In this document: in pieces, positions 57,411-60,024 of the stretch
Layout of the letters: every line of letters starts with the position of its first letter
Numbering within the stretch: position 1 is the first letter of the stretch
NCBI GenBank assembly: GCA_000155695.1
Contig: DS990592.1
Location: 5,112,538-5,176,537 of the forward strand
Direction of reading: 5' to 3'
From: Verrucomicrobiia bacterium DG1235
Lineage (GTDB): Bacteria > Verrucomicrobiota > Verrucomicrobiia > Opitutales > Opitutaceae
Length of the DNA stretch: 64,000 bases
Made by a program: the position numbers and the translations under genes
The notes under the pieces: model-generated
Databases searched by the model: none
What the model was told of the DNA's origin: nothing
Seen by the model: only the letters and a program-made list of their open reading frames with translations

Positions 57411-57444
57411 GCAATCCAATGTCTAACGTTAGACATTGGATTGC
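57411..57444. promoter_or_regulatory. Perfect 34-bp palindrome, possible LacI-type operator
   Basis: The half-site GCAATCCAATGTCTAAC is followed directly by its exact reverse complement, without a spacer. The centre TAACGTTA has the AACGTT core typical of LacI/GalR-family operators. It lies 87-120 bases upstream of the GH17-like start. No T run flanks it, so a terminator is unlikely. The role as operator is inference. Confidence 0.55.
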
Positions 57445-57680
57445 ACAGAAGGGTTTGGGGTTGTGGGGGGATGGGTGGAATTGTTGGGGGTGGGCAGTGG
57501 GCGCTTTCTTTTTGGTTCATCGTCAAATCGAGTGGACGGGGAGGAACTGGTTTAACAGTGATCCGGCCTTTGGCCGTAACAGGGTGGCCTGCGGCCGGCA
57601 GGATTCGAGATGGCAAGAGTGACGCCATTCGGGGTGGATCTTGTTTCCACTGTGTTTGGTGATGAACCCTTGTAGGTTAC
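57445..57680. other. Non-coding stretch before the IS110 element
   Basis: No believable gene lies between the palindrome and the IS leader. The stretch has GC-rich hairpins such as CCTGC/GCAGG (57588-57602) and CGGCC/GGCCG nearby. The left end of the IS110 element may lie within or just after it. Confidence 0.4.
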
Positions 57681-57694
57681 TGGCCTATGAAGTC

Positions 57695-57990
57695 TTCGCT
57701 TTTCGAGTCCTTCCGAGCTACCGAGCCGCAGGCGACAGCGAAGCCATGGGTGGAAACCACTCGTCGGAGGAAGGACTCGATAAAGCCCTTCACAGCGCTA
57801 CTCTGTGAAGGAGCCGGGAACCGACGCGCCCTTGGCAGAGGACGCGCCGGGGTTGCGCGTGAGATCAAGATGAACCAAGAGCGAGGGAAGCCTGAGCTCA
57901 GAAAAAAGCGCCGGTCCCGCGCAGCCTCCTGGCTTAATCTCAAACAGTTGCAAGAACCTCGCGGCGCGCCGCGTGAGTTCACCTCTACAA
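57695..57990 (+). ncRNA. Candidate bridge RNA of the IS110 element
   Basis: The leader of the transposase gene folds well. TCGAGTCCTTCC (57703-57714) pairs perfectly with GGAAGGACTCGA (57769-57780) around a 54-base loop. CCTTCACAG (57787-57795) pairs with CTGTGAAGG (57803-57811). CGCGGCGCGCCGCG (57960-57973) is a palindrome. In IS110-group elements the region just upstream of the transposase encodes a bridge RNA whose internal loops pair with target and donor DNA. That this leader is such an RNA is inference from position and folding. Confidence 0.5.
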
Positions 57991-58004
57991 GTAGGAGTTA
58001 AGCC

Positions 58005-58940
58005 ATGGATACACAAGCCGTTTCATATATCGCCATCGATGTCTCCAAGAAGACCTTGGAGGTCCTTTCCGAGGATTGGAGCAAAAGCCGCAGCGTCGCC
58101 AACAGCGAGGCCGCGTTGGAGGGGCTGCTCAAGAAGCATGCCGGTTTCTCTCAGTCGCATTTCATCTGCGAGGCGACTGGAGGGTACGAACGCGCCCTGG
58201 TGGGCCTGCTGCATTCTCGCGGCATAGCGGTGAGCGTGGTGTCGCCGGCCAAGGTCCGCTACTTTGCCCAAAGCGAGGGCGTGAAGGCCAAGACCGATCC
58301 GATTGACGCGAAGATGCTTCTGCGTTTCGCGCGGGAAAAGCGTCCCCGGGCAACTCCTGCTCCAAGTCCGCAACGCAAGGCCTTGGCGGCGCTGATGGAT
58401 CGGCGGGAGCACTTGAGCGAGCAGCTCAAGCGAGAGAAGACCCGTCTGCAGAAGTGCGACGGATTGGTCGCGCAAAGCGTGGGACGCATGATCGACATAG
58501 TCGAACGCGAGATCGAGACAGTAGACGGGCAGATTCGCCGGCTGGTCGCCGGCTTCGCATCCTTCGCCAAAGTCTACGAAACACTTGTTTCGGTAGTGGG
58601 CATCGGGCCGGTTACGGCATGGACCCTGTTGGCCTACCTGCCCGAACTGGGTCGGCTCAGCCGCAACCAAGTGGTAGCGCTCGCCGGTCTGGCTCCCTAC
58701 AATCGGGACTCGGGGGACTCCAAGAAGATCCGGAAGATTTTCGGCGGGCGAGCAAAGGTTCGCCGCTGCCTTTATCTGGCCGCGGTGGCGGCCTACCGCC
58801 ACAACGATGTCATTAGAGCCTACACCCAACACTTTCTCGATGCCGGCCGGCCGTTCAAGTGGGCAGTTGTCGCTGCCATGAGGAAGCTACTTATCCACAC
58901 TCACTACTTAGTTAAAAAACTCGATGTCGCACTTGCCTGA
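58005..58940 (+). CDS. IS110-family transposase (DEDD recombinase)
   Basis: This 311-residue transposase has a RuvC-like DEDD domain, with D12 in YIAIDVSKKTLEV, E56 in CEATGGYE, and D98 and D101 in KTDPIDAK. A coiled coil follows, then the C-terminal Tnp domain (VVGIGPVTAWTLLAYLPELG). The candidate catalytic Ser is S236 in PYNRDSGDSKK. All active residues are intact, so the element may be mobile. It starts at the ATG at 58005, shortly after GTAGGAG, a good ribosome-binding site. Confidence 0.94.
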   Translation: MDTQAVSYIAIDVSKKTLEVLSEDWSKSRSVANSEAALEGLLKKHAGFSQSHFICEATGGYERALVGLLHSRGIAVSVVSPAKVRYFAQSEGVKAKTDPIDAKMLLRFAREKRPRATPAPSPQRKALAALMDRREHLSEQLKREKTRLQKCDGLVAQSVGRMIDIVEREIETVDGQIRRLVAGFASFAKVYETLVSVVGIGPVTAWTLLAYLPELGRLSRNQVVALAGLAPYNRDSGDSKKIRKIFGGRAKVRRCLYLAAVAAYRHNDVIRAYTQHFLDAGRPFKWAVVAAMRKLLIHTHYLVKKLDVALA

Positions 58941-59117
58941 GACACAGTTGCTTTTTTGGGGGGAGGTGCAGTGGCAGGTTTTTATTTTTTAGGGGTGGAA
59001 AAATATGGCTATGGGACTGAGGCAAGGTAGGGGGACAAAGTGCAATAGGTGGGGATGAGAGGGGCGGGTGAAGGTGGACGTTTTTTTTTGGGGGGCGGTT
59101 TGGGCAGAGGTCCAATC

Positions 59118-59591
59118 CTACGCATCGCTTGGTGCACTCTTGGGGGCCTGGGATCGGTTGGATACTTCTTCTTTGAGGGAAGCGTAGCTGCGGCTGGTTT
59201 CGATGAGGGCGGTGACGAGAGCGGCGGCGATAGTGAAGAGTCCGAGGAGGAAAGTTCCGATGACGAGGTGGGGGATGTTGAGGTCGGCGGCAGTTGCGAG
59301 GGTTAGCAGCATGGTGCTGAGGAGGAAGCAGCACATGGCGACGTAGAGGTCGGCGATGCTGTTGCGGAGGAGGTGGCTGCGCTGCTTGAGCCAGGCGATT
59401 TGCTTGGCGAGGGAATGGGTGTAGTCGATGTTGTCGCGTTTGCCTTCGGATACGAGGGAGCGGATGGCTTGGACGATGCGGCTGAAGCGGTTTTGCAGGG
59501 CCCAGACGAGGGTTGCGGAGGAGGTCATCATGACGAAGGGCGCGAGGATGGCCTTGTAGCTGGCGAGGTTTAAGTCGAGCAGGTCAGTCAT
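59118..59591 (-). CDS. DUF2721 membrane protein 2
   Basis: This 157-residue inner-membrane protein has three hydrophobic segments (SYKAILAPFVMMTSSATLVW; YVAMCCFLLSTMLLTLA; IGTFLLGLFTIAAALVTALI). The RFSRIVQAIRSL segment after the first helix is typical of DUF2721. The ATG at 59591 gives a start that overlaps its upstream neighbour by eight bases; a longer frame to 59678 is not needed. It is a paralog of the protein at 59584-60024. Function unknown. Confidence 0.75.
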   Translation of the reverse strand: MTDLLDLNLASYKAILAPFVMMTSSATLVWALQNRFSRIVQAIRSLVSEGKRDNIDYTHSLAKQIAWLKQRSHLLRNSIADLYVAMCCFLLSTMLLTLATAADLNIPHLVIGTFLLGLFTIAAALVTALIETSRSYASLKEEVSNRSQAPKSAPSDA

Positions 59592-60024
59592 CGCATGTCT
59601 CCAGTTGAACGATACGGTAGGAGAGGAGGGCTTCGCGGGTGGCGTGCCAGAGTCCGATGAAGAGGAACAGCAGGGCAATGCCGAAGAGGAGGAATACGAG
59701 CGCTGAGGAGTTGACGATTTGGAGCGAGCCGAGTCCGAGAGCGATGGAGGAGCAGATGACGAAGAAGACGGCGAAGTAGAAGCAGAAGATGGCGTTTCGG
59801 ATGAGTTTGGCTCGCTGCATGAGGGAGTCGATCTGGCCGCGTATGCGTCGGAGGGTGGGAGTCTCGCTGGGGGTGGATCGCTTCTCGCTGTTGAGCTGTC
59901 GAATGACGGCGGCGATGGTGCTGTACTTGGTCTGCAGGCCGGCTAGGAGGAGGCCGATGCCGGTGATGAGGACGGCGGGCGCGAGCGAGGCGTTGATGAA
60001 GTCGATGGCGTCTTGGAGCGTCAA
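59584..60024 (-). CDS. DUF2721 membrane protein 1
   Basis: This 146-residue DUF2721 protein has transmembrane helices at LAPAVLITGIGLLLAGLQ, FCFYFAVFFVICSSIALGLG and ALVFLLFGIALLFLFIG. The linker KYSTIAAVIRQLNSE follows the first, and a short cytosolic C-terminus (LSYRIVQLETCDD) ends it. It is translationally coupled to the second DUF2721 gene and begins 39 bases after the stop of the large glycosidase-like gene, so the three may form one transcript. No function is known for the family. Confidence 0.78.
   Translation of the reverse strand: MTLQDAIDFINASLAPAVLITGIGLLLAGLQTKYSTIAAVIRQLNSEKRSTPSETPTLRRIRGQIDSLMQRAKLIRNAIFCFYFAVFFVICSSIALGLGSLQIVNSSALVFLLFGIALLFLFIGLWHATREALLSYRIVQLETCDD

Follow-up and report, generated by a model that had tools for sequence, protein, structure and literature searches.

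The element and its transposase

The window, the 64,000-nucleotide stretch of contig C6 that we analysed from a host genome of 5.8 Mb, carries an IS110 element inserted between a GH17-like gene and two DUF2721 genes, directly behind a small MITE-like repeat (Table 1). The DUF2721 genes are adjacent and overlapping on the minus strand (59118-60024) and are possibly a tandem duplication. A short way upstream of the repeat lies a perfect 34-bp palindrome, GCAATCCAATGTCTAACGTTAGACATTGGATTGC (57411-57444), of which about 20 near-identical copies are found elsewhere in the genome. An Rfam match to the Na+ riboswitch at 58965-59004, outside the element, reaches 24.3 bits against a gathering score of 40.5 and is probably due to chance.

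The transposase reading frame matches the Pfam families DEDD_Tnp_IS110 (4.5e-24) and Transposase_20 (2.4e-17), and an earlier note made from the DNA letters had taken it to be intact, with all DEDD residues and a candidate catalytic serine. This description was borne out: D12, E56, D98, D101 and S236 are unchanged in nine related transposases and line up in sequence alignment with the catalytic residues named for IS621 (PMC11208158). When searched by sequence against solved structures, the protein matches only ISCro4 (5.9e-38) and IS621 (8.3e-37). Its AlphaFold2 model (mean pLDDT 82) likewise resembles the ISCro4 and IS621 RNA-protein-DNA complexes at E 5e-19, with TIGR-Tas proteins next. Judged by sequence and predicted fold, the element belongs to the IS110 group of the IS110 family, with a RuvC-like DEDD domain and a Tnp domain that would supply the catalytic serine.

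Table 1. Features of the IS110 locus (window coordinates)
Feature	Position	Strand	Basis
MITE-like repeat, internally deleted copy; GATGAACC (57661-57668), its terminal repeat on the 3' side, serves as left target	57514-57668	+	Dispersed copies
IS110 element, 1282 bp including one CT core	57669-58950	+	Junctions of two copies compared
Left CT core dinucleotide	57669-57670	+	Common to both junctions of both copies and to relatives
Right donor half TGTAGG (element left end)	57671-57676	+	Complementary to guide CTACAAG at 57985-57991
5' stem-loop of predicted bridge RNA: 12-bp pairing, 54-nt loop	57703-57780	+	Kept in 12/12 leaders
9-bp hairpin, structural, non-guide	57787-57811	+	Compensatory changes in relatives
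Target-binding loop (predicted); outer stem 57851-57859/57918-57926, apical stem 57879-57882/57896-57899	57851-57926	+	
Left target guide GATGAACC	57869-57876	+	8/8 to copy 1 left flank; among relatives this site changes along with the target
Right target guide AAAAAAG (reverse complement of CTTTTTT)	57902-57908	+	7/7 in copy 1
Donor-binding loop (predicted); outer stem 57931-57937/57998-58004, inner stem 57954-57957/57977-57980	57931-58004	+	
Left donor guide ACAGTTG	57944-57950	+	Same as element right end 58944-58950
Right donor guide CTACAAG	57985-57991	+	Reverse complement of element left end CTTGTAG
AGGAG, likely transposase ribosome-binding site, inside donor-loop stem	57993-57997	+	Sequence; putative function
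IS110 DEDD transposase (recombinase), 311 aa	58005-58940	+	Pfam, homologues, IS621/ISCro4 sequence and fold
Left donor half ACAGTTG (element right end)	58944-58950	+	Junction comparison
Right CT core dinucleotide	58951-58952	+	Junction comparison
Right target TTTTT	58953-58957	+	T-run 3' of CT in both copies, decayed L023 and L025

Ends, core and target

A second copy lies on the minus strand of the same chromosome (C6:928294-929654), and alignment of the two copies fixes the ends and the CT core. The left junction reads GATGAACC-CT-TGTAGG in the window copy (copy 1) and GATGAAC-CT-TGTAGG in copy 2, and the right junctions read ACAGTTG-CT-TTTTTGGGG and ACAGTTG-CT-TTTTTTTTGCG, respectively. The bounds first proposed for the element, 57681-58945, thus move outward to 57669 and 58950. 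Both copies have the short core and the same target, without long terminal inverted repeats, and the non-coding ends are unequal, with about 334 nt upstream of the transposase gene on the left and 10 nt on the right. Copy 1 carries one additional C at its left junction, which places its register one base off that of copy 2 and of the family alignment; the exchange may have been shifted, or the junction may have changed afterwards.

These two are the only full copies in the genome. Their transposase sequences are identical and their ends intact, while the MITE copies that host them differ. A decayed third right end, ACAGTTG-CT-TTTTTTGGCTC, is present on contig C5 (L023:587-663), where it is joined to a MITE fragment at the common word GGCAAG with GAGCCAAAAAAAGC on either side, an arrangement that fits an insertion at the MITE's other end followed by deletion. 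Within the genome collection, Pelagicoccus sp. SDUM812002 (Verrucomicrobiota, Opitutia) is the nearest named relative that carries the element; in its copy (L025:2182-3457) the transposase appears frameshifted and one base has been lost at the right end. A search of viral contigs for relatives of the element found none.

Both full copies lie at the 3' end of the MITE-like repeat, in a target reading ..GATGAAC(C)-CT-TTTTT... The repeat is about 225 bp long, has the ends GGTTCATC..GATGAACC, and occurs in about 15 copies dispersed through the genome. One of these (L016) is bracketed by the 8-bp duplication TATTTTAA, which would fit a MITE that generates a target duplication of this length. An ISL3 transposase was considered as its partner and rejected, as Pfam PF01610 is absent from the genome. 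The repeat exists in a full form and in a deleted form that has lost the part between GCAGGATTC direct repeats; the window copy of the IS110 element lies in the deleted form and copy 2 in the full-length form, and the two are therefore separate insertions. One exact target, GATGAACCTTTTTT, stands empty at C6:537383, and seven one-mismatch sites occur elsewhere in the genome, whereas the reversed control pattern found no site in the same search. With the terminal repeat of this small, dispersed MITE-like element as its target, the IS110 element lands between genes. In diverged relatives (L029, L036, L039, L097 and L105), the flanks carry CTCTGCGTC-CT-..GCGGTTAAA or a similar repeated sequence, which suggests that these relatives picked one common dispersed target repeatedly.

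A predicted bridge RNA upstream of the transposase gene

The earlier note had described the leader as folded and as a likely bridge RNA, and had emphasised two of its hairpins. Both hairpins are real: the 12-bp stem pairs 57703-57714 with 57769-57780 around its 54-base loop, which in the window copy has about 27 bases more than in other leaders, and the perfect 9-bp stem pairs 57787-57795 with 57803-57811. Folding of the leader is better than that of all 100 dinucleotide shuffles (z -3.65). The guides themselves, however, lie further 3', at 57869-57908 and 57944-57991; placement of guides within the 54-nt loop or the 9-bp hairpin was rejected because the matches to flanks and ends fall elsewhere; both hairpins are conserved structural elements. 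All four guides are found in two internal loops, with the left and right guide on opposite sides of each, so that one loop fits both sides of the target and the other both ends of the element. The earlier note had named, as an outcome that would speak against its reading, a leader in which no loop is complementary to the insertion flanks or element ends; the leader shows the opposite. In IS110-group bridge RNAs the left guide is like the top strand and the right guide is its reverse complement, core included (PMC11208160), and the window leader has the same guide order and polarity. It scores 15/15 for its own target, compared with 13 for the best of 1500 random CT sites in the window. In a consensus fold of five leaders the target guides are unpaired; of the 86 pairs predicted, 27 have changed on both sides. 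An Rfam search with the leader returned no curated family at E up to 1.

IS110 relatives in the host's bacterial family have other targets, and comparison of their leaders supports the bridge RNA prediction, the loops changing together with the target and the ends. Relative G007 (eight copies), for example, has CTCTGCGTC-CT-CAGCG as its target, and the corresponding places in its loop are occupied by TCTGCGTC and CGCTGAG. We scanned all usable alignment columns for such co-variation using eight elements, one for each distinct right target. For the right target guide, one column matches the elements' own flanks at 40/40 bases across these differing targets; the next best column reaches 48% and the mean is 27%, and 40/40 was attained in only 1 of 20000 target permutations. 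The left target guide is also the top column of its own scan, at 60% against a mean of 25%, the lower value being explained by one-base register shifts and by weaker fits in single-copy relatives, with only 5/8 in the distant L031 and L047-L049. The left donor guide agrees at 78 of 84 bases across relatives and tracks the right-end variants CAGTTG, CCGTTG and CCGCTG. For the right donor guide, a contiguous 7-mer scan of the mixed set did not single out the true column. The likely reason is that pairing at this place is discontiguous in the distant relatives, as has been described for IS621 (PMC11208160).

To extend the comparison, we built an RNA model on twelve of the leaders; it is mainly a sequence profile, since the family-wide RNAalifold structure kept only 9 donor-loop pairs. 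In the host genome the model finds just the two known copies and no orphan bridge RNAs lacking a transposase, and in the family it has matches in 45 of 252 genomes and 26 of 49 genera. The right end could be located in 12 of the 18 loci new to the model, in every case 8 to 11 bases past the stop codon. At these 12 loci, which have ten distinct right targets, 58 of 60 flank bases are correctly predicted by the right-target guide taken from the model column (shuffle control: mean 20.6, maximum 45 in 20000), a figure slightly biased towards the hypothesis because target and donor match were used jointly to place the right end. A right end was sought and not found in L097, L103, L106, L108, L110 and L113, which are likely broken or truncated copies.

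Discussion

Our analysis points to an intact IS110-group insertion sequence whose upstream non-coding region encodes a predicted bridge RNA guiding recombination at CT, a reading to which we assign a probability of roughly 0.94. It draws on the ends, core, repeated target, guide matches and co-variation that emerge from comparing the copies and their relatives. One could argue instead that the recombinase protein itself reads the end of the repeat, and that the leader's guide matches simply reflect shared repeat sequence or arose by chance. The target is after all a repeated sequence, and one of the guides is a low-complexity A-run. Nevertheless, relatives with other targets have a matching other guide in the same column, first in the scan and then again at the new loci, and the element's own target outscores all random sites, which makes recognition by protein alone very improbable. 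Still harder to credit is the view that the leader is merely a folded 5' untranslated region controlling translation of the transposase. The outer stem of the donor loop does stop at the ATG and enclose the AGGAG ribosome site, but such a role leaves the matches to target and ends, and their co-variation, unexplained. Translation control could be an additional role of the leader, not its sole one.

A more serious doubt is that the element may be anatomically right and yet inactive now. Full copies number just two in this genome, and the close relative in L025 appears frameshifted. On the other hand, the two copies share the same transposase sequence and intact ends while occupying different MITE copies, and every catalytic residue is present; we therefore think it unlikely that the element has lost activity.

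Taking the predicted bridge RNA as correct and IS621 as the guide, we infer transcription, RNP formation, circle formation and present activity by homology. The element would excise as a circle with its ends joined at CT, and a promoter spanning the joined ends would transcribe the bridge RNA; the candidate there, TTGCCT-16-TAGGTT, has 7 of 12 consensus bases and is weak on paper. The RNA would bind the recombinase and pair the circle junction ACAGTTG-CT-TGTAGG with the target GATGAAC(C)-CT-TTTTT, and the recombinase would exchange strands at CT. Given the position of the donor-loop stem at the ATG and around AGGAG, RNA and mRNA may compete, although this is conjecture. A tentative and rather doubtful extension is that the clade couples bridge RNA and transposase expression, each transcript being either folded as bridge RNA or translated as mRNA. 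Such coupling, if true, would amount to a built-in copy control.

In the proposal of a new RNA-guided recombinase, "new" can apply just to the individual element and not to the mechanism, because descriptions of RNA-guided IS110 recombination go back to 2024. RNA-guided IS110/IS1111 recombination, natural retargeting and terminal-repeat targeting are all known already, and the element is a further, well-supported case of a mechanism that came to light only recently. What it contributes is a bridge-RNA recombinase verified at the sequence level, its ends, core and guides placed exactly, from a Pelagicoccus-like bacterium (Verrucomicrobiota, Opitutia), together with a clade in which one RNA scaffold has been naturally retargeted many times. 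This clade should help in choosing orthologous recombinases and in learning which guide positions may vary. Aiming a bridge RNA at a MITE-like terminal repeat would direct insertion to a site that is repeated and probably does no harm; a search of the open-access literature, judged by the titles and abstract openings of the papers retrieved, gave no case of an IS110 element with a MITE as its target.

The element shares with IS621 and ISCro4 (PMC11208160, PMC11208158, PDB 8wt6, 9t56) a DEDD and serine recombinase, a CT core, a long left end with the bridge RNA upstream of the gene and the target loop ahead of the donor loop, and insertion in repeated sequences. It departs from them in its transposase (about 31-33% identity in structural alignment), in the additional hairpins that separate its 5' stem-loop from the target loop, and in its ends and its target, a MITE terminal repeat; its leader extends 334 nt before the ATG, compared with the 177-nt RNA of IS621. 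ISEc21/ISMch6, of the IS110 type, also have their guide RNA (seekRNA) upstream of the transposase gene and naturally retargeted relatives (PMC11187229), such retargeting being reported for both ISEc21/ISMch6 and ISEc11/ISXne4 in that work; here the element and target are others, and the RNA is a prediction. For an element that inserts into the terminal inverted repeat of a different mobile element, the closest parallel is IS4321/IS5075, which are described as entering the terminal repeats of the Tn21 family (Partridge and Hall 2003, as cited in PMC11187229). Those elements belong to the IS1111 group; their inverted repeats are sub-terminal and their RNA usually lies downstream of the transposase gene, whereas the long non-coding end of the element described here lies upstream of it.
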